Notes under the pieces: generated by a model
Seen by the model: only the letters and a program-made list of their open reading frames with translations
What the model was told of the DNA's origin: nothing
The model's database searches: none
Source of the DNA: Fimbriimonadaceae bacterium
GTDB taxonomy: Bacteria; Armatimonadota; UBA10988
Direction: 5' to 3'
Length of the DNA stretch: 64,000 bases
Assembly (NCBI GenBank): GCA_020850355.1
Contig: JADZEX010000081.1
Span: forward strand, 1 to 64,000
Part shown: in pieces, positions 26,472 to 35,592 of the stretch
Position numbering within the stretch: the first letter of the stretch is position 1
Layout: each line of letters begins with the position of its first letter
Program-made: the position numbers and the translations under genes

Positions 26472-28022
26472 TTACAGCCCGGCCAGATAGGCTGCCGCCA
26501 GTGCCAGGTCGCGCTCCAGATCCGGCTCGGCCGCGGCGAACTGGCGACGTGCCGCGCTGGCGGGCAGGTAGCTGTTGAGCATCGTACAGGCCCACCGCAG
26601 GCGCACCAGTGGCCAGACCGCGCGACACCGCGCGAGGTGTCGCGCGGGATCGGGCAGGGCCGCGCAGAGGCTCGCCGCGAAGTCGTCGTAGCCGGCGTCC
26701 GCCACCGGCAGGTCGGGCTGGCAGTAGAAATCGCCCACCAGCTTCGCCACGTCGTCCCAGCCGGCGTACTCGAAGTCCAGCCAGGCGAGCTCGCCAGCGG
26801 GCTGCCAGAGGGCGTTGTGAAAGCCGCAGTCGCTGGGCGAGAGCCAGCGCTCGGCGACGGGCAACGGCTGCTCGGGCAGCGCGGCCAGGACCGGCCGCAG
26901 GCGCTGCCAGGCGGCCTGCAGGTGCGTCTCGACGAACGTTCGGACGCGCGGCGCGGTGACCTCGGCCAGCAGCCGCTGCAGGCGCCGGTCGACCAGCGTG
27001 GCGTGCTCGGCCCGGCTGAAGGCGGCCTCGCTGGCGGCCGGCAGGTGCGCCGCCTGCGGTCCCAGCGCCTGCACCTGCCGCAACCAGTCAGCGGCCGCGG
27101 CGACGCGCTCGGCGGTGATCTCCGCCGGCCGCAGCGGCCGGCCGTCCAGCCAGGTGTAGACCGCGGCGCCCAGCGGCCGGTGCTGTGCCACCGGCCGCGC
27201 GACCTGCGGCAGCCCGGCGGCCGCGGCGACGCTCAGAAAGCCGTACTCGTGCGCCAGCCGGTCCCGCGGGTCGCCGGGGTGACGGTGGTACTCCTTCAGC
27301 AGCAGCGGCGCCGGCCCACCGTCGAGCCGCCAGACGCGGTTGTTGCGCCCCCCCCGCAGCCGCGTGGCGACGACCGGTGCGGGCAGCGTCTCGGCCAGCC
27401 AGGCCAGCAGCGCTGGCGGCGGGTCAGCGCCGCTGGAGCCGTGCAGCAGCGCCGGCAGGTCGGCCCAGGCGGTCAGGCGCTCCACACCTGCGGGCAGCCC
27501 GGCCGTGCCGTGCGGGTCGAACAGGATCCGGCGCACGCCGGTCGGGAAGGCGGCATCGCCCAGTAGCTCCGGCAGGTCGTCGACGAAGGTGGTGCAGCCG
27601 CAGGCGGCAATCCGCTGCAGTTTGGCCTCGCGGGTTGTCTCGAGCCAGACCCCGCCGGGCAGTAGCTCCAGCAGGCCCTGCCGCGCCAGCCAGTCGCGCG
27701 CCGCGCCGTGCAGGTCGGCTGGCGGGCCGGCGTAAGGCTGGCGGGTGCGGTGGCTGATCACCGCCACGCACAGCCCGGCGGCGCGCAGGGCGCGGAGGCA
27801 GTCGACGACGCCGGCGAAGGCTGGCACGCGGGCCATCGCCTGGCCATAGACCAGGCCCTGTAGCGCGGTCCAGGCAGACTCCCGTCCGCTCGCCCGCAGG
27901 TGGTCCCGGACGGCGGTCTTGGTGTGCGGCAGGTCCGGCGGCAGGAGGCCCTGCTCGGCCGCCAGGTCGCCGAAGACCTGGTCGTAGCAGGCCATCGTGT
28001 TGTCGAGGTCGAGGCCGATCAC
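26472..28022 (-). CDS. HAD-superfamily phosphatase fused to an aminoglycoside-phosphotransferase-like kinase
   Basis: This 516-residue fusion has two domains. Residues 1-~190 are HAD-like: DLDNT (Asp5, Asp7), ISHRT (~89), a Lys near 134 and FVDD (~147). Residues ~205-516 are APH/choline-kinase-like: LRGGRNNRVW, LLLKEY (ATP Lys), SPSDCGFHN (catalytic Asp) and WLDFEYAGWDD (metal site). It could phosphorylate and dephosphorylate sugar intermediates. The GTG start overlaps the upstream dehydrogenase stop (GTGA, 28019-28022), placing it as the last gene of the six-gene sugar cassette. Confidence 0.85.
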   Translation of the reverse strand: MIGLDLDNTMACYDQVFGDLAAEQGLLPPDLPHTKTAVRDHLRASGRESAWTALQGLVYGQAMARVPAFAGVVDCLRALRAAGLCVAVISHRTRQPYAGPPADLHGAARDWLARQGLLELLPGGVWLETTREAKLQRIAACGCTTFVDDLPELLGDAAFPTGVRRILFDPHGTAGLPAGVERLTAWADLPALLHGSSGADPPPALLAWLAETLPAPVVATRLRGGRNNRVWRLDGGPAPLLLKEYHRHPGDPRDRLAHEYGFLSVAAAAGLPQVARPVAQHRPLGAAVYTWLDGRPLRPAEITAERVAAAADWLRQVQALGPQAAHLPAASEAAFSRAEHATLVDRRLQRLLAEVTAPRVRTFVETHLQAAWQRLRPVLAALPEQPLPVAERWLSPSDCGFHNALWQPAGELAWLDFEYAGWDDVAKLVGDFYCQPDLPVADAGYDDFAASLCAALPDPARHLARCRAVWPLVRLRWACTMLNSYLPASAARRQFAAAEPDLERDLALAAAYLAGL

Positions 28023-29062
28023 CCGGCGGCTCGGAAGTCGATCAGGGGCCGTACGGCACGCCCCTCGGCGAGGTCGTCCAGCGCTTCGTTGATCTGCTCC
28101 AGCCGGTAGACGTGCTGCCGCAAAGGCGCCAGGTCCAGCCGGCCGGCCGCAATCAGACCAGCGTAGCGGGGCAGGTCGACCTCCGGCGCGGTGTCGCCGC
28201 CCCAGGTGCCGAGCAGCCGCTTGCCCTGGTTGAACTGCCGCGGGTCGAGCACCAACTCAGCCCCGGCGCGGGCGTTGCCGACCACCACGGTCTGCCCGCC
28301 GCGGGGCCGCACCGCGGCCAGCGCCTGGGCCATCACCGTCGGTTGGCCGGTCGCCTCGACGGCGTGGTCGAGCCCGGCAGGCAGCAGGCTGGCCAGCGCC
28401 AAGACGGGATCCTGAGCGCTGGCGTCGACCGTGGCGCTGGCGCCGCAGCGGGTGGCCAAGGCCAGGGCCGCGGGGCGGACATCGACCGCCACCACCGCCG
28501 CGCAGCCGGCGAGGTGCGCGGCCAGCACGGCACAGAGCCCGACGCCGCCACAGCCGAAGACGGCCAGACGGTCGCCCGGCCGCGGCCGCAGGACCTTCAG
28601 GACCGCGCCCAGCCCAGTCGGCGCGGCGCAGCCGAGCAGGGCGGCGTCGGCCGGGTCGAGGCCGCCGGGAAGCGGGGTCAAACGGTTCTCGGAGACCACC
28701 GCCAGCCGCGTGAAAGTGGCCACCGGACCCGCATTGACGAGCTGCTCGCCGCGGCGGTATTGCGGACCGCGAGTGTTGGCCCCGGGGCCCTGCAGCCAGC
28801 TCAGGATCACCGGATCACCCGGCGCCACGCGGCTGACGCCGGGGCCGACCGCAGTGACCACGCCGCTGCCCTCGTGGCCAAGGGTGTGCGGCAGCCAGGG
28901 ATCCGGGCCGCGCAGCCCGCGCACCTCGAGCAACTGCGTGTGGCAGACGCCGCTGTAGGTCAGCTCGACCAGCACCTGGCCCGGCAGCAGCTCCGGCACC
29001 GTCAGCTCTTGCAGCTCCAGCGGCTGACCCAGTTCCACCAGCACCGCCGCCAGGGTTGTCAC
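28019..29062 (-). CDS. Zinc-type (MDR) alcohol dehydrogenase, structural-zinc lobe missing
   Basis: This 347-residue medium-chain dehydrogenase has the catalytic zinc ligands (YSGVCHTQ and TLGHEGSG) and the NAD-binding AVFGCGGVGL. The usual four-cysteine structural-zinc loop is replaced by GPGANTRGPQYRRGE. It probably interconverts an alcohol and a ketone or aldehyde on a sugar intermediate. The GTG start (29062) overlaps the stop of the transketolase C-subunit, and its own stop overlaps the HAD-kinase start. A role in the same pathway is therefore likely. Confidence 0.88.
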   Translation of the reverse strand: MTTLAAVLVELGQPLELQELTVPELLPGQVLVELTYSGVCHTQLLEVRGLRGPDPWLPHTLGHEGSGVVTAVGPGVSRVAPGDPVILSWLQGPGANTRGPQYRRGEQLVNAGPVATFTRLAVVSENRLTPLPGGLDPADAALLGCAAPTGLGAVLKVLRPRPGDRLAVFGCGGVGLCAVLAAHLAGCAAVVAVDVRPAALALATRCGASATVDASAQDPVLALASLLPAGLDHAVEATGQPTVMAQALAAVRPRGGQTVVVGNARAGAELVLDPRQFNQGKRLLGTWGGDTAPEVDLPRYAGLIAAGRLDLAPLRQHVYRLEQINEALDDLAEGRAVRPLIDFRAAG

Positions 29063-29976
29063 GTCACGTCTCCCAGTTGCTGCCGCCAGGTGCGGACCTG
29101 CGCCACGATCCCGGCGGTATCGATCCCGCAGGCCGCGCGTTGGGCTTCCTGGCCGCCGGCGGTGACCAGAAACTGGTCGGGCACGCCCAGGGTCAGCAAC
29201 CGTGCCGGCTGCCCGCTGGCCGCCAGCCAGGCCGCCACCGCTGCGCCGAGACCGCCCCGCAGGGCGTGCTCCTCGACCGTTACCAGCCGCCCCGTCGCCG
29301 CCAGCGCGGCCAGGCCGGCGGTGTCCAGCGGCTTCACCGTCGGGACCGCCACCACCGTGGCATCGAGCGCCGCGCCGGCCGCGAGGACCTCCGGCAGCAG
29401 CGGGCCGTAGGTCAGCAGCACGACCTCGCGACCGGCCCGCAGCGGTCGCAGTGCGCCGATCTCGAACGGCGGTTCGGCGTCGAAGACGTCCGGCTCGCCC
29501 TTCTTGCCCAGCCGCAGGTAACACGGCCCAGCGTGTGCCAGCGCCGCGCGGAGCGCGGCTCGCGTCTCACGGGCGTCGGCCGGGCAGAGCAGGGTCAGGT
29601 CCGGCAGCAGACCCAGCAGGCCGAGGTCGTCGCAGGCGTGGTGGGTCGGTCCCAGTTCCGCATACGACAACCCCGCGCCGACCCCGACGACCACCACCGG
29701 CAGCCGGTGGGCGCAGATGTCGAGCTTGATGAACTCCAGGCAGCGCGTTGTGTTGAACGGCGTGATGGTGTAAGTGAGCGGCCGCAGCCCCGCCTTGGCG
29801 AGCCCGGCGGCGACGCCGGTCATGTTCGCCTCGGCCACGCCGCAGTTGTAGAACCGTCCCGGAAAGCGCTCCTTGAAGCGGTCGAAGAGGCGGTTGCCGA
29901 TATCGCCCGAGAGCAGCACGATCCGCGGGTCCTGGGCGGCCAGCTCTTCGAGGCAGGCGGCGAAGGCGTTTCTCAT
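29059..29976 (-). CDS. Transketolase, C-terminal (pyrimidine-binding) subunit
   Basis: This 305-residue protein has the pyrimidine domain of transketolase (RIVLLSGDIGNRLFDRFKERFPGRFYNCGVAEANMTGVAAGLA). The Glu in GVAEANM activates thiamine diphosphate. A C-terminal transketolase domain (LLTYGPLLPEVL; VTVEEHALRGGLGAAV) follows. It works with the adjacent N-terminal subunit as a two-chain thiamine-diphosphate enzyme that moves two-carbon ketol units, or a DXS-like reaction. The ATG overlaps the N-subunit stop (29973-29976), and its stop overlaps the dehydrogenase start. Confidence 0.92.
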   Translation of the reverse strand: MRNAFAACLEELAAQDPRIVLLSGDIGNRLFDRFKERFPGRFYNCGVAEANMTGVAAGLAKAGLRPLTYTITPFNTTRCLEFIKLDICAHRLPVVVVGVGAGLSYAELGPTHHACDDLGLLGLLPDLTLLCPADARETRAALRAALAHAGPCYLRLGKKGEPDVFDAEPPFEIGALRPLRAGREVVLLTYGPLLPEVLAAGAALDATVVAVPTVKPLDTAGLAALAATGRLVTVEEHALRGGLGAAVAAWLAASGQPARLLTLGVPDQFLVTAGGQEAQRAACGIDTAGIVAQVRTWRQQLGDVT

Positions 29977-30812
29977 GCCAACCCCAACTCGGCCCGCGCC
30001 GCGGCCACTTCGGCGGCGGTCGGCAGGCGGTAATGCCAGTTGTTGTCGTCCTCCATGAACGACACCCCCCGGCCCTTGACCGTGCGAGCGATCACCGCCA
30101 GCGGCTGGGTGGCATCGCGAGCCTGGCGGTAGGCCGTCACCAGCGCCGCCAGGTCGTGCCCGTCGACCTCGCGGGTGGCCCAGCCGAAGGCCGCCCACTT
30201 GGCAGCCAGCGGTTCCAGGGCCAGCACCTCCGGACTGCGCCCGGTGGCCTGCCAGCCGTTGGCGTCGACCACCACCAGCAGGTTGCCGAGCTGTTGAGCC
30301 GGCGCGAAGGCGGCTGCTTCCCAGACCGCACCTTCGTTGCACTCGCCGTCGCTGAGCACGGCCAAAACCCGCGTGTCGCGGCCGCTGATCCGGGCGGCCA
30401 GCGCCAGCCCGCAGGCCACCGGCAGGCCGTGACCGAGCGACCCGGTGGCGTGGTCAAGGCCGGGCACACAACCTGGCACGGGGTGCTCCGGCAGCGCGGT
30501 GCCGGGCTGGGCGTAGGTCTCCAGCCAGTCCAGCGGGAAGTAGCCCCGCCAGGCCAGGACGGCGTACAGCGCGGCGATGGCGTGGCCCTTGCTGAAGATC
30601 AGCGCGTCGCGGTGCGGCAACTGGACGACCCGCGGATCGAGCCGGAAGGGGCCCCCATAGGCGGCCAGCAGAATCTCGACACACGACAGCGCCGACCCGA
30701 GGTGCGCGGCCCGCCCGCGGTGGCTCATCGCGACGATCTGCCCCCGCACCTCGCGAGCGGCGTTGGCCAGCACGCGCAGCCGATTGCCGGTGATCGGCGG
30801 ACGCTCTTTCAT
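29973..30812 (-). CDS. Transketolase, N-terminal (ThDP pyrophosphate-binding) subunit
   Basis: This 279-residue protein carries the thiamine-diphosphate/Mg motif SDGECNEG ... VVDANGW (the GDG-x26-N type), plus the His of ALIFSKGHAIAALYA and SLGHGL that line the active site. The N-terminal half ends at the usual split point (ARTVKGRGVSFMEDDNNWHY). It pairs with the C-subunit gene by an ATGA overlap (29973-29976). The upstream epimerase also overlaps it (30809-30812). Its place in a nucleotide-sugar-like cassette argues for a dedicated carbon-transfer step rather than the housekeeping pentose pathway. Confidence 0.92.
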   Translation of the reverse strand: MKERPPITGNRLRVLANAAREVRGQIVAMSHRGRAAHLGSALSCVEILLAAYGGPFRLDPRVVQLPHRDALIFSKGHAIAALYAVLAWRGYFPLDWLETYAQPGTALPEHPVPGCVPGLDHATGSLGHGLPVACGLALAARISGRDTRVLAVLSDGECNEGAVWEAAAFAPAQQLGNLLVVVDANGWQATGRSPEVLALEPLAAKWAAFGWATREVDGHDLAALVTAYRQARDATQPLAVIARTVKGRGVSFMEDDNNWHYRLPTAAEVAAARAELGLA

Positions 30813-31807
30813 GCCAGTCGCAGCGCCTGCATCGTCTTGATGTTGGAGTAGCGCGCCGCGGTCAGGGCGTCGGGCACCTGGCCGGCGTCGAAGGCCGCGA
30901 CGAGATCGCTGACGGCCTCCTTGATGCTGTGCCGCGGCACGAAGCCGAGGTCGCGGCGGATCTTCTCCGACGAGATGTGGTAGCTGCGGTGATCGTCGCT
31001 GGGGGTCGTCACGATCTCGATCCGGGGACCGATCACGTCGCGCACCAGCTCGGCAATCTCGCGCACTCGGTGGTTCTCCCAGCCAGCGTTCCAGACGCCG
31101 CCGTTGACTTGCGCCGCGGGGCGGGCCAACAGGTCGACATAGAGGTCGGTGATGTCCTCGATATGGATGTTCGGCCGGCGCTGCTCGCCACCGAAGACGG
31201 TGATCTGACCCTTGTGCCAGGCGTGGCAGGTCAGGATGTTGACGGTCAGGTCCAGCCGCAGCCTCGGTGACCAGCCGCAGACCGTCGCCGGGCGCACGGT
31301 GACGGCGCAGAACTCGTCGCTGGCGTACTCCGCCAAGATCGCCTCGCACAGCGCCTTGTACTTGGAGTAGTCGGTGAGCGGCTCCAGCGGCAGCTCCTCG
31401 GTGACGTTGTCGACCTCCTTGATGCCGTAGACCGAGCTGCTGGAGGCGTAGACGAAGCGCTGCACGCCAGCGGTGCGGCTGGCTTCGAGCAGTGGCCGGA
31501 AGCAGTCGTAGTTGATCGACTTGCCGAGGGTTGGGTCGAGCTCGAACGACGGGTCGTTGGAGATGCAGGCGAGGTGGATCACCGCCTGGCAGCCGGCCAG
31601 CGCGGCGGCGACGGTCGCCGGGTCGCGGAGGTCGCCCACCACCAGCTCGTGGGCGGGGTGACCGGCGACGTCGGCCAGCACCTCGCGGCCGAACCAGCAG
31701 AGGTCCAGGACCCGGACCCGGTAGCCGGCGGCCAGCAGCTTCGGGACCAGCACCGCGCCGACGTAGCCGGCGCCGCCAGTGACCAACACGCGGGGAGCGG
31801 GGGACAT
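30809..31807 (-). CDS. NAD-dependent epimerase/dehydratase (extended SDR)
   Basis: This 332-residue extended short-chain dehydrogenase/reductase has an N-terminal Rossmann motif VTGGAGYVGAVLV (GxxGxxG), SSSSVYG for the catalytic Ser, and YSKYK with the catalytic Tyr-x3-Lys. Such enzymes epimerise, dehydrate or reduce NDP-sugars. The ATG at 31807 has AGGAGG upstream; a TTG two codons earlier is less likely. It lies 10 bases after the kinase/nucleotidyltransferase fusion and overlaps the transketolase N-subunit by 4 bases. The substrate may be the NDP-sugar made by that fusion. Confidence 0.92.
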   Translation of the reverse strand: MSPAPRVLVTGGAGYVGAVLVPKLLAAGYRVRVLDLCWFGREVLADVAGHPAHELVVGDLRDPATVAAALAGCQAVIHLACISNDPSFELDPTLGKSINYDCFRPLLEASRTAGVQRFVYASSSSVYGIKEVDNVTEELPLEPLTDYSKYKALCEAILAEYASDEFCAVTVRPATVCGWSPRLRLDLTVNILTCHAWHKGQITVFGGEQRRPNIHIEDITDLYVDLLARPAAQVNGGVWNAGWENHRVREIAELVRDVIGPRIEIVTTPSDDHRSYHISSEKIRRDLGFVPRHSIKEAVSDLVAAFDAGQVPDALTAARYSNIKTMQALRLA

Positions 31808-31817
31808 CGCCAACCTC

Positions 31818-33356
31818 CTACCTCAAGAGCGATTCGATGCTGCGCGTCAGCCGCAGTTTCTGCAACGGCTGCGGCCCGTAGGCCGACGAGACCACTTCGG
31901 CCGCCGCCACATTGCCCAGGAAGGCGACCACCTCGAGCGGCGCGCCCTGCGCCGCGGCGAGGGCTGAGAGGGCCACAAAGGCCTCGCTGGCGCCGGTCCG
32001 GTCAACCACCTGGGTGGCCACGGCCGGGGCCTCGTTGAAGCTCTCACCGCTGTGGGCCAGACAGCCGTGCTTGCCCCGTGTGACCATCGCCACCGACGCG
32101 CGCAGCCGGCCCGCCACCAGTGGCAGCAGGGTGCGCAGTTCGCCGTAGGGGCTGTGGCAGTCGAGCCGCAGGTCCTGCTCGGTGAGGCAGACATAGTCGG
32201 CCCGCGGGTAGTGCGCCGTGCTGAGGTAGCCGACGTTGGTGCCCTGCGCCTGCACGTGCAGGCTGAGGTGCCGCGCCTGCCGGGCGATCCGGCCGATCGC
32301 CGCAGCGGTCAGCAGGGAGTGCCCGTAGTCGGCGACGATCACGGCGTCGTGTTGCGGCAGCAGGTGGTCCAGCCGGTCCAGCAGCCAGCCCTCGTCGGAC
32401 GCGGTCAACGGCTCCTCGTCGACGCGGCAGACCTCGAACACCGGCGTGCCGAAGTAAGTCTCGCGGTAGCGCCGAGTGAGCGGGGTGGGGGCGCCCGCCT
32501 TGCGTAGGAAGTGCGCCTTGATGCCCGGCTGCAGGTGCTTCAGGGCCCAGCGCTCCTCGGCATCCTCGGCGCCGACCAGCGAGACCAGGCTGACCTTGGC
32601 GCAGAACGCGGCGAGGTGGTTGGCCAGCGCGGCCGCGGCGCCCAGCCAGCGCTCGCTGGTGAGCAGCCGCATCGTCGCCACGGCGGCCCGCGGCGAGCGG
32701 CCGGTCGCCTGCACGAAGACGTGCTCGTCGATCATCGTCTCACCGACCACCAGCAGCCGCAGGTCGGCGGCGCGCTCCAGCCAGGCCAACAAGCTGGGCG
32801 TGGCGTGATTCTCGCTGAGCCGCAGCAGGTACTCCTGAGTCTCGTCGTCGAACGGCGAGAAGTGGCGGTTGAGGAGGTGCGAGGAGCTCGACCGGAGGTC
32901 GTCGACGTAGGCCATCTGCGCGCCGAGCGCGGTCACGGCGGCCTCTTCAGCAATGATCTCGGGCGTCCGCTTGTCGCGGTACTCGCCGCCCTTGGCGTAG
33001 ATGTCGGGCCGGATCGCCTGCACCGTCTCGACCGCCGTCGGCCAGCGGTTGACGGCCACCAGGTCGACGCACTCCAGCGCGGCCAGGGCCTCGGCGCGGA
33101 GCTGTTCGCCAAAGGCCGGGCGGAGCGGTCCTTTGTTGACCCACACATCGGGCGTCAGCGTGACCACCAGCAGGTCGCCCAACGCGCGGGCCCCGGCGAG
33201 GTAGCGGAGGTGGCCGATGTGCAGCAGGTCGAAGACCCCGTGGCAATGCACGACGCGCTGCCCGACGGCGCGCGCCGCCGCCACGGCGGTGGCGAGCTGG
33301 TCGATGTCGACCACCTTCGCTGACGGCGTCCGACGGGTCGTGTCCTCGGCTGCCAC
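31818..33356 (-). CDS. Nucleotidyltransferase-PfkB kinase fusion, HldE-like with reversed domain order
   Basis: This 512-residue protein starts at GTG 33356, preferred because GGAGG sits 6 bases upstream; an ATG 13 codons earlier has no SD. Residues ~10-165 are a cytidylyltransferase-like domain (HGVFDLLHIGHLRYL, with HIGH ~46-49; YAKGGEYRDK). Residues ~200-512 are a PfkB/ribokinase domain (LLVVGETMIDEHVF). HldE proteins have kinase first and nucleotidyltransferase second; here the order is reversed. The kinase motif DTxGAGD reads DRTGASE, so the catalytic Asp becomes Glu (~458). It may activate a sugar phosphate. It is the first gene of the six-gene cassette. Confidence 0.88.
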   Translation of the reverse strand: MAAEDTTRRTPSAKVVDIDQLATAVAAARAVGQRVVHCHGVFDLLHIGHLRYLAGARALGDLLVVTLTPDVWVNKGPLRPAFGEQLRAEALAALECVDLVAVNRWPTAVETVQAIRPDIYAKGGEYRDKRTPEIIAEEAAVTALGAQMAYVDDLRSSSSHLLNRHFSPFDDETQEYLLRLSENHATPSLLAWLERAADLRLLVVGETMIDEHVFVQATGRSPRAAVATMRLLTSERWLGAAAALANHLAAFCAKVSLVSLVGAEDAEERWALKHLQPGIKAHFLRKAGAPTPLTRRYRETYFGTPVFEVCRVDEEPLTASDEGWLLDRLDHLLPQHDAVIVADYGHSLLTAAAIGRIARQARHLSLHVQAQGTNVGYLSTAHYPRADYVCLTEQDLRLDCHSPYGELRTLLPLVAGRLRASVAMVTRGKHGCLAHSGESFNEAPAVATQVVDRTGASEAFVALSALAAAQGAPLEVVAFLGNVAAAEVVSSAYGPQPLQKLRLTRSIESLLR

Positions 33357-33563
33357 CCCGTCCCTCCGGCCCGGAGCGCGGGCTGCTCCCACCATTCGGA
33401 TCGCAGCGCGGGGCTCCTGCCGGCAGGCCGCGGCAGTTTACCTTGGCGTCACCGGCCCGGCAGTTCGACGGCACGTAGGCGGCGCGGGATCGGCCGATTG
33501 GGCCCTAAACCCGCCCGCCTCTGCGACGATGACTCTGTGGGCAGAGTGTCGGAGCGTACCACC

Positions 33564-34370
33564 ATGGCGATGACCCAGGTGCTCGTCGTAGACGATGTCG
33601 CCGTCTTCCGCTACATGACTCGGCAGTTGCTGGGTCGGGAGGAGGACCTGGAGGTCGTTGCCGAGGCCGCCAGCTCGAAGCAGGGCGTCGAGCTGTACCA
33701 GTGGTGCAAGCCCGACATCGTGCTGCTGGATCTCCACCTGCCCGATGTCGATGGCATCGAGACGCTGCGGCGGCTCCGCCAACTGGACCCCCAGGCACGG
33801 GTCGTGATGGTCACCGCCGCGCCGGACGCCGAGCACGAGCAGGCGGCCTACGGCGCCGGCGCGATGGCCTTTCTGAGCAAGCCCGTCAACGCGGCGCGGC
33901 TGATCGCCGAGATCCGCCGCGTGCTGGAAACCCCGATTCAGGAGCCGGTGACGGCGGTGCGGCCGGATGCGCTGACCGCCGAGCCGGGGGTGCTGGTGGT
34001 CGACGACGACCCCATCGTGCGGAAGGTGCTCGAGAAGCTGATCGGTGAGGCGGGCGGCCGGCTGGCCGCCGGGGCCGGCACTGCGCCGGGGGCCTGGAAG
34101 CTGTTCCAAAAGCACGACCCCGACCTGGTGCTGCTCGACCTGACCCTCGGCGCTGGCTACGGCCTGGACCTGCTGCGCGACATCCGCAAAGTGAACCAGG
34201 CCGTGCCGGTGGTGGTGATCACCAGCGACAACCGGGCCAGCACGGCCCGGCAGGCGCTCAGCCTGGGCGCCTCAGGCTACCTGCTGAAGCCGGTCAGCCG
34301 CGAGGTGACCATCGACATGCTGCGCAAGCAGTTCCTCAAGGTGCGCCGGCAGATGGCGGTCTCGGCGTGA
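33564..34370 (+). CDS. Double-receiver response regulator
   Basis: This 268-residue protein consists of two complete CheY-like receiver domains. In the first (~4-120) the acidic pair is LVVDD, the phosphoacceptor is in DIVLLDLHLP, and the switch residues are MVTAA and LSKPV. In the second (~140-260) they are VVDDD, DLVLLDLTLG, VITSD and LLKPV. There is no DNA-binding output domain, so it probably relays phosphoryl signals or acts through partners. GGAG lies about 9 bases before the ATG at 33564. The porin gene starts only 40 bases downstream. Confidence 0.9.
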   Translation: MAMTQVLVVDDVAVFRYMTRQLLGREEDLEVVAEAASSKQGVELYQWCKPDIVLLDLHLPDVDGIETLRRLRQLDPQARVVMVTAAPDAEHEQAAYGAGAMAFLSKPVNAARLIAEIRRVLETPIQEPVTAVRPDALTAEPGVLVVDDDPIVRKVLEKLIGEAGGRLAAGAGTAPGAWKLFQKHDPDLVLLDLTLGAGYGLDLLRDIRKVNQAVPVVVITSDNRASTARQALSLGASGYLLKPVSREVTIDMLRKQFLKVRRQMAVSA

Positions 34371-34410
34371 CGGCGACCGGCCGGTGGTGACTCGAGAAGG
34401 GTGGGCTCGA

Positions 34411-35592
34411 ATGTCCGACAGTCGTGTTCGGGTCTGGCGCTGGCTGACGCTGGGAGTGGCCCTGGCGGCCGGGCTGGCGCAGGCCAATCCGCGTGAGGAG
34501 CTGCTGGAGCATCTTCGCAGCGAACACCTCGGCCGCGGGCTGGGCTGCGCCGAGTGGTGGGCCGAGCACGGGCTCGACCTCGAACTATGGCACGCCAGCG
34601 AGTTCGCCTGGAACACCGGCGGCGGCCTCAGTGCCCGCCGGGCGTTGGATTACGTTGGTTACTGGACCGCCACCGCGTTGCTCGACACCGGCACCGCCGG
34701 CTGGTGGCCCGGTGGCCAGTTCTACGCCGCGGCGGAGTCCTACTACGGTCGGCCGCTCAGCTCGACCAAGGTTGGCGACTACTGGTACTTCAGCAATCTC
34801 ACCTTGACCGACAACACCACCCGGCTGGCCGAAGCCTGGTACCGTCAGGACTTCGGCGGGCGGGGCTGGCTGCAAGCGGGTCTGCTCGACGCCTCCTGGA
34901 CCTTTGGCAACCCGCAGGGCTGCGGTGAGCTGAACAACAGCTCGGCCTGGGCCAACCCGGCGATCCCGCTGCCGGTCTCGCCCGTGCCGAACTGGGGCGC
35001 GCTGGGCGGCTGGCAGGTCACCGACCGCTGTGAGCTACGTCTTGGCCTGCTGCACAACAAGCCCGGCGGCCCGTTCCTGATTGCGCAGCCGGTGTTCGGT
35101 TACACCTCCCAAGGTCAGCCGGGCCGGTTGGCCCTCGGCGCCTGGTGGAACGGTGGCGACGCCGCGGCGGTGGACCCCGCCGACCCGCGCGTCTACAACC
35201 ACACCTGGGGGCTCTACGCCAACTGGGACCAGCGCCTCTGGGCGGCCAGCGACGCCGCGGACGAACCCCGCGGCCTGGACCTGTGGGCCAGCTACGCGTA
35301 CGCCAAGGCCGACCGTGCCGTGCTGGAGCACTTCCTCGCCGGTGGTGCCACCTGGTCAGGCCCGCTGCGCGCCCGGCCCGCTGACGCCCTGGCCTTCGGC
35401 GCCTTCCACCTCAAGTTCAGCCCCGCCGCCGGCCTGCCGCACGACGCCGAAACGACCCTCGAGGTAGTCTACCGGGCACAGCTCGCGCCGTGGCTACAGG
35501 CGCGCTTCGATGCCCAGTACATCATCTCGCCGTCGGGCGCCGACCTGAAGCCGGCGAAGGTGGTCGGCGTGCGGCTCGAGACCCTCTTCTGA
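34411..35592 (+). CDS. OprB-type carbohydrate-selective porin
   Basis: This 393-residue protein has an export signal (RWLTLGVALAAGLAQA) and then amphipathic beta strands rich in Trp, Tyr and Gly (YWTATALLDTGTAGW; QAGLLDASWTF; GLRLETLF end). It finishes with a C-terminal Phe, as outer-membrane barrel proteins do. The layout fits the OprB sugar porins of Pseudomonas and cyanobacteria. It should sit in the outer membrane and admit sugars or oligosaccharides. This is the best evidence in the window for a two-membrane cell. It precedes three secreted glycosidase-like genes. Confidence 0.86.
   Translation: MSDSRVRVWRWLTLGVALAAGLAQANPREELLEHLRSEHLGRGLGCAEWWAEHGLDLELWHASEFAWNTGGGLSARRALDYVGYWTATALLDTGTAGWWPGGQFYAAAESYYGRPLSSTKVGDYWYFSNLTLTDNTTRLAEAWYRQDFGGRGWLQAGLLDASWTFGNPQGCGELNNSSAWANPAIPLPVSPVPNWGALGGWQVTDRCELRLGLLHNKPGGPFLIAQPVFGYTSQGQPGRLALGAWWNGGDAAAVDPADPRVYNHTWGLYANWDQRLWAASDAADEPRGLDLWASYAYAKADRAVLEHFLAGGATWSGPLRARPADALAFGAFHLKFSPAAGLPHDAETTLEVVYRAQLAPWLQARFDAQYIISPSGADLKPAKVVGVRLETLF

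Follow-up and report, generated by a model that had tools for sequence, protein, structure and literature searches.

A conserved six-gene cassette with a split transketolase in a Fimbriimonadaceae bacterium, a candidate pathway for a two-carbon-branched nucleotide sugar

Layout of the cassette and its gene products

We analysed a stretch of 64,000 nucleotides (the window) from the genome of a Fimbriimonadaceae bacterium (Armatimonadota; assembly GCA_020850355.1, contig JADZEX010000081.1, positions 1 to 64,000), in which six minus-strand open reading frames (ORFs) at 26472–33356 form a cassette around a two-chain transketolase. An earlier reading made from the letters alone (the sequence-only reading) had described these six genes as joined by four ATGA or GTGA overlaps and one 10-base gap, and had suggested that they may build an unusual activated sugar, perhaps with a two-carbon transfer. 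The described layout was read again in full in the window sequence. The gap lies between the first gene (boundary 31818) and the second (boundary 31807). The four stop-start junctions are at 30812 (reading ...GGCATGAAA, overlap at 30809), 29976 (...GGCATGAGA, overlap at 29973), 29062 (...GACGTGACA, overlap at 29059) and 28022 (...GGGTGATCG, overlap at 28019). Stop-start overlaps by themselves are an ordinary operon feature. The guanine-plus-cytosine content of the cassette is 72.8% against 71.3% for the window, a composition that does not support recent import.

Table 1 Features of the six-gene cassette, in order of transcription. SDR, short-chain dehydrogenase/reductase; ThDP, thiamine diphosphate; ADH, alcohol dehydrogenase; NDP, nucleoside diphosphate.
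Feature	Position	Strand	Basis
Nucleotidyltransferase-PfkB fusion, HldE/RfaE-like domains in inverted order	31818..33356	-	CTP_transf_like and PfkB domains; L007 ortholog
NAD-dependent sugar-nucleotide SDR, proposed NDP-heptose (C4) dehydrogenase	30809..31807	-	Epimerase SDR domain; nearest PDB 6vo6/6vo8
Split transketolase N chain (TkN), ThDP-binding half	29973..30812	-	Transketolase_N; PDB match 6yak
Split transketolase C chain (TkC)	29059..29976	-	Transket_pyr and Transketolase_C; residue alignment
Zinc-type ADH, proposed reductase of the C2 branch	28019..29062	-	ADH_N and ADH_zinc_N; residues read from sequence
HAD phosphatase-like domain, N-terminal part of fusion	27444..28022	-	Four HAD motifs; fold search
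APH/choline-kinase-fold kinase domain, C-terminal part of fusion	26472..27437	-	Lys, SPSD..FHN and DFE motifs; fold search

Pfam domains bore out the families that had been named for the first five genes, i.e. a nucleotidyltransferase-PfkB fusion, an SDR epimerase, a two-chain transketolase and a zinc ADH. The fusion protein is 50% identical to its ortholog in a genome from another family of the same phylum (G013, locus L007:3525-5042). It matches TIGR02198 (E 2e-31) and TIGR02199 (E 2e-29), both under the curated equivalog cut-offs and with the domains inverted. Its nucleotidyltransferase domain has intact HIGH and SSS motifs, and its PfkB domain, with GG changed to LG and GAGD to GASE, looks degenerate. 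Neither a GmhA nor a GmhB gene is present in the window cassette. Elsewhere in the same genome, C10 carries a stand-alone HldA-like kinase gene, C38 an RfaE2-like gene together with a GmhB-like one, and C87 a gene resembling GmhA. The HldA-like and RfaE2-like genes score under the equivalog cut-offs; GmhA and GmhB were assigned from a general SIS model and matches to locus sequences. Heptose phosphate supply by these four genes is plausible.

The best solved relative of the SDR in a PDB search is 6vo6/6vo8 (E 7e-38, about 30% identity), which, in line with reference 21 of PMC10680097, we take to be Cj1427 of Campylobacter jejuni. The SDR and 6vo6 match in a common block, SPR-x-RLDL-x-VN. Cj1427 is a guanosine diphosphate (GDP)-heptose C4-dehydrogenase in a pathway fed from sedoheptulose-7-phosphate (PMC10680097). 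The catalytic pair Y147-x3-K151 is present in the window SDR, which is 71% identical to its L007 ortholog and probably, judged by this homology, oxidises an NDP-heptose at C4. A dehydratase signature is absent from the SDR and no NCBIfam equivalog scores above cut-off; we therefore rejected the possibilities that it is a dehydratase or GalE.

The zinc ADH keeps its catalytic-zinc ligands and misses the four structural-zinc cysteines. The last protein, read from sequence alone as a HAD-APH fusion, has no Pfam match in the window. The fusion holds for the window copy, whose halves correspond to genes of G013 with AlphaFold folds, but not for its relatives, where the two are separate genes. In G013 (L007) the HAD and APH genes are adjacent, their products are 44–47% identical to the two halves of the window fusion, the APH protein matches PF01636, and the AlphaFold models reach a mean per-residue confidence (pLDDT) of 97 and 93, respectively. 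The two families were aligned separately. The HAD family keeps all four motifs (D-x-D-x-T, S, K and DD) and the APH family all of its own. The fold search placed the HAD domain nearest to 5'(3')-deoxyribonucleotidase (TM score 0.71); for both domains it returned general folds (nucleotidase-like and choline kinase/APH-like) that indicate no substrate.

Conservation across genomes and the transketolase pocket

A scan of a genome collection with the SDR gave 80 homologous loci with 58–69% SDR identity from many phyla; they were picked by SDR similarity and are mutually related, so that the counts below are not independent events. The order SDR-TkN-TkC-ADH-HAD-APH is complete in L007 (G013), L020, L026, L050 and L086, and is the same up to the ADH gene, where the contig ends, in L060, L063 and L075. 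Pseudomonadota and others often have the arrangement SDR-HAD-APH-TkN-TkC instead. Co-occurrence in relatives, on which the sequence-only reading had staked its proposal, was found in this way in G013 and four other genomes, and in contig-truncated form in three more. This conserved order rules out a chance gene neighbourhood, and it is the keeping of the six-gene order in other phyla, not the overlaps, that is the signal beyond chance. A transketolase is present in 42 of the 80 loci. Cultured strains that carry the transketolase module include Azospirillum brasilense BR 11650 (L079) and Crocosphaera watsonii WH 8501 (L022), and Planctomycetota are also represented. In the tree, one clade with 98% support (SH-aLRT, a likelihood ratio test) comprises the window TkC and the other type A chains and spans at least eight phylum-level lineages. 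Within the phylum the full set recurs in the G013 genome, and a full-length nucleotidyltransferase-kinase is rare (2 of 291 genomes). Neighbours of the L007 cassette, named by eye from sequence, are a glycosyltransferase-like ORF, methyltransferase-like ORFs and an ABC exporter; the sugar of G013 probably enters a surface polysaccharide.

The nucleotidyltransferase-kinase fusion was found in 62 of the 80 loci, and in 43 of these it is accompanied by a GmhA-like SIS gene, a GmhB-like phosphatase gene or both. In most relatives the GAGD kinase motif is intact, unlike in the window copy. The catalytic Asp of GAGD is also missing in L026, L034 and L040, and none of these four loci has an adjacent GmhA-like gene. 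Because the fusion usually occurs with GmhA/GmhB-like genes and the SDR is nearest to Cj1427, the core of the cassette is probably formation of an NDP-heptose and then of an NDP-ketoheptose. In 15 of the 59 loci whose downstream sequence extends for 4 kb or more, neither a transketolase nor a pair resembling the alpha and beta chains of pyruvate dehydrogenase E1 (E1-like pair) was found, and the SDR therefore serves other pathways too.

The transketolase is made of separate N and C chains with a ThDP motif and a catalytic Glu. TkN, whose best PDB match is the N chain of the split transketolase 6yak (E 2.5e-58), keeps four active-site histidines as well. TkC differs from ordinary transketolases in the pocket. 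In human transketolase numbering, the residues that bind the phosphate of the substrate or the hydroxyl of the acceptor are known from crystallography as R318, S345, H416, R474 and D424. The window TkC does not match this canonical pocket at any of four positions (S345R, H416G, D424L and R474K). The same signature was found across 39 module TkC chains: H416 is G and D424 is L or N in 39/39, S345 is replaced in every chain, R474 is K in 38/39, and R318 and the catalytic Glu are retained in all. Twenty canonical chains, including the own-genome copy, human transketolase and 6yaj, have H416, D424 and R474 in 20/20 and S345 in 19/20; the two classes were sorted by this residue signature, and the tree, computed with the signature columns left in, likewise places them in different clades (99%). 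The sequence-only reading would have been undone if the cassette transketolase were the only one in the genome. A canonical split transketolase is encoded elsewhere (G000:C65), and with its pocket residues differing, the cassette enzyme was rejected as the housekeeping transketolase.

Sister transketolases outside the module stand beside genes for other nucleotide sugars. In three loci of the same phylum with non-canonical transketolases (L135, L136 and L139), an RfbF gene scoring above cut-off is accompanied by an SDR that is closest to cytidine diphosphate (CDP)-glucose 4,6-dehydratase but below cut-off, followed by an SDR, TkN and TkC. On a Paenibacillus cellulosilyticus plasmid, a gene annotated as SDR (L156:6097-8004) encodes a 635-amino-acid fusion of a sugar SDR and TkN; it adjoins annotated rfbF and rfbG and a TkC gene whose product has G at 416 and Q at 424. 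A link to a predicted maker of NDP-ketosugars is present in two forms, as the Cj1427-like SDR directly upstream of the cassette transketolase and as RfbF and the RfbG-like dehydratase beside the sister enzymes. The LysW-linked split transketolases of Streptomyces plasmids (L154:7030-8921, L155:7060-8888 and L160:7096-8921) keep H416 and have Y at 424, a third pocket type that is distinct from those of the canonical and the module enzymes; in another Streptomyces locus, which is unannotated, residue 424 is L. AziC5/C6 of azinomycin extends a non-phosphate aldehyde (PMC9570651). From these enzymes we infer that a changed D424 is consistent with a new acceptor and that the added loss of H416 would fit a donor without the usual phosphate. 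A further group of non-canonical split transketolases, with Trp at 424, occurs away from the sugar module (L117 and L128, with L144 and L145), and a Gfo/Idh-like ORF adjoins one transketolase of this group.

In 12 of the 80 loci an E1-like pair lies near the SDR gene, and the overlap with the 42 transketolase loci is zero (p 4.5e-5, a value that is indicative only, the loci being related). HAD and APH accompany the transketolase in 28 of 30 loci, the other two being cut off, and never the E1-like pair. Pairs of this kind are the proposed acetyl-branch enzymes in the eurekanate and paulomycose schemes (PMC4425429, PMC10338323), and YerE performs C2 branching for yersiniose (PMC12247030). In L017:14010-21489 and L023:12711-14749 an E1-like pair together with two DegT-like aminotransferase genes replaces the transketolase, and this variant is a candidate acetyl-branched amino-heptose pathway.

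A proposed branching pathway and its alternatives

We propose, with a probability of about 45%, that the cassette makes a C2-branched (7+2 carbon) nucleotide sugar by hydroxyacetyl transfer onto an NDP-ketoheptose, followed by reduction to a C9 product. The nucleotidyltransferase domain would form NDP-heptose from heptose 1-phosphate. That phosphate would come, in relatives, from the fused PfkB domain and the GmhA/GmhB-like neighbours; in the window, where the kinase looks degenerate, the stand-alone HldA-, GmhA-, GmhB- and RfaE2-like genes elsewhere in the genome may serve instead. The Cj1427-like SDR would then oxidise the NDP-heptose, probably at C4. TkN-TkC, judged by its neighbours and pocket residues, would take a hydroxyacetyl group from a ketol (perhaps hydroxypyruvate) and attach it to the keto carbon of the sugar, so forming a tertiary alcohol, and the zinc ADH would reduce the ketone of the new branch, as proposed for the oxidoreductase step of paulomycose. 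HAD and APH may add or remove a phosphate somewhere along the route. The sequence-only proposal of an unusual activated sugar, perhaps made with a two-carbon transfer, thus gained support from the heptose context, the transketolase pocket, the sister transketolases near CDP-4-ketosugar genes and the E1-like replacement.

Several points weigh against this proposal. What the computations establish is the gene set, its order and conservation, the state of domains and motifs, and the residue changes; substrates, product and activities of the members are at most predicted, and at about 30% identity to Cj1427 both C4 oxidation and heptose specificity of the SDR are extrapolated. With two motif changes in the window kinase and no adjacent GmhA gene, a different sugar phosphate could be the precursor. 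Known pathways to branched sugars have no step for HAD and APH. A scan of 17 window ORFs, near the cassette and farther away, found no glycosyltransferase, and the relatedness of the 80 loci lowers the weight of their counts.

Two other explanations of the transketolase are each unlikely. According to the first, the enzyme serves precursor supply: it makes sedoheptulose-7-phosphate or a longer ketose phosphate for heptose synthesis, and the pathway ends in an ordinary modified heptose. Transketolase normally makes sedoheptulose-7-phosphate, and relatives of the cassette carry GmhA-like SIS genes, which act on it. However, all 39 module chains have substitutions at the residues that in ordinary transketolase bind the substrate phosphate and the acceptor 2-hydroxyl, the genome already encodes a canonical split transketolase, and the window cassette lacks a GmhA-like gene. 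Moreover, the pair that takes the same slot in 12 loci, being E1-like, is not expected to make sedoheptulose-7-phosphate.

The second explanation, similarly doubtful, is that the transketolase, HAD and APH together build a small non-sugar or short-chain unit (e.g. a C3–C5 ketol or phosphate) that decorates a heptose made by other genes. The strict association of HAD and APH, both intact, with the transketolase and never with E1 would fit such a role, and the changed pockets also suit a small unphosphorylated substrate. Yet the sister transketolases in CDP-4-ketosugar clusters are without HAD-APH-like neighbours in the tested set, one of them is fused to a sugar SDR, and HAD-APH was not seen in four module loci that do bear a transketolase (L034, L040, L061 and L074).

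That the branched sugar derives from a non-heptose precursor, with PfkB a vestige and the SDR kept for a different NDP sugar, is quite improbable: the altered kinase motifs of the window, the altered GAGD of L026, L034 and L040 and the lack of an adjacent GmhA-like gene in all four agree with it, but the SDR is 71% identical to that of G013 and 58–69% identical to module SDRs that mostly occur with GmhA/GmhB-like genes, and stand-alone HldA-, RfaE2-, GmhB- and GmhA-like genes are present elsewhere in the genome.

Relation to known systems

Branching of an NDP-ketoheptose by a transketolase, as we propose it, has partial counterparts in several known systems. The GDP-heptose pathway of the C. 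jejuni capsule (GmhA/HddA/GmhB/HddC and Cj1427) follows the same heptose activation logic, with a Cj1427-like SDR downstream. In the cassette, by contrast, nucleotidyltransferase and kinase are one inverted HldE-type fusion, and the route continues with a split transketolase, zinc ADH, HAD and APH, whereas that of C. jejuni continues with C3/C5 epimerases and C4 reductases.

Transfer of hydroxyacetyl to keto sugars by split-gene transketolases has so far been proposed only for the Streptomyces nucleoside antibiotics miharamycin and amipurimycin; a 2025 review (PMC12247030) counts 13 such candidates, all from Streptomycetes and none characterised in vitro. Like the cassette enzyme, these are split transketolases that belong to a sugar pathway and are proposed to act on a ketone; judged by published description, the module differs in its occurrence in at least eight phyla, its NDP-heptose context and its other gene set. 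The E1-like pairs for acetyl branches, AviB1/AviB2, Pau11/Pau12 and EvdU5/EvdS3, and YerE of yersiniose are ThDP enzymes that add a C2 unit to a 4-keto sugar, as we propose for the module enzyme; the latter belongs to the transketolase superfamily and is expected to move hydroxyacetyl rather than acetyl. The two-chain build and the catalytic residues are shared with the split transketolase of Carboxydothermus hydrogenoformans (6yaj/6yak), the AziC5/C6 type and the LysW-linked enzymes; 6yaj keeps S, H and D at the positions that the module transketolases all change. The idea of a ketone-accepting transketolase is thus already known, and the transketolase family, its breadth, the heptose context and the residue signature appear to be new. 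No paper describing this cassette was found in the open-access literature searched.

Some neighbouring genes and related loci were observed beside these. Divergent from the cassette, a gene at 33540-34367 of the window encodes a protein with two receiver domains of response regulators but without a recognised output domain, and the next gene (34384-35589) encodes an OprB-type carbohydrate porin. A protein of about 900 amino acids is encoded divergently from heptose modules, mostly of type B, at L068:4683-7439, L035:4669-7515, L062:1185-3944, L081:4670-7414 and six more loci of alphaproteobacterial type. The L068 copy contains SBBP beta-propeller repeats, and the protein may be a glycoprotein that carries the sugar. 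One region of the Solidesulfovibrio plasmid pDCAR1 (L016:13911-16992 and L159:6076-8939) holds genes for a nucleotidyltransferase-PfkB protein, a nearby SIS protein, two TkC chains that differ (one canonical and one of module type), APH and radical SAM proteins.

Beyond the window, we tentatively suggest, at odds somewhat short of even, that a transketolase subfamily found in at least eight phyla no longer acts on sugar phosphates and transfers hydroxyacetyl to nucleotide ketosugars, here an NDP-ketoheptose, giving C9 branched cell-surface sugars, with the E1-like pair in the same slot giving the acetyl-branched counterpart. The module supplies dozens of candidate ketone-accepting transketolases with a predicted acceptor and a signature that distinguishes them from ordinary transketolases, and the formation of tertiary alcohols by transketolases on nucleotide sugars would become directly testable. 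If the proposal is true, it would describe a widespread route to branched C9 surface sugars and would provide biocatalysts for hydroxyacetyl-branched tertiary alcohols.

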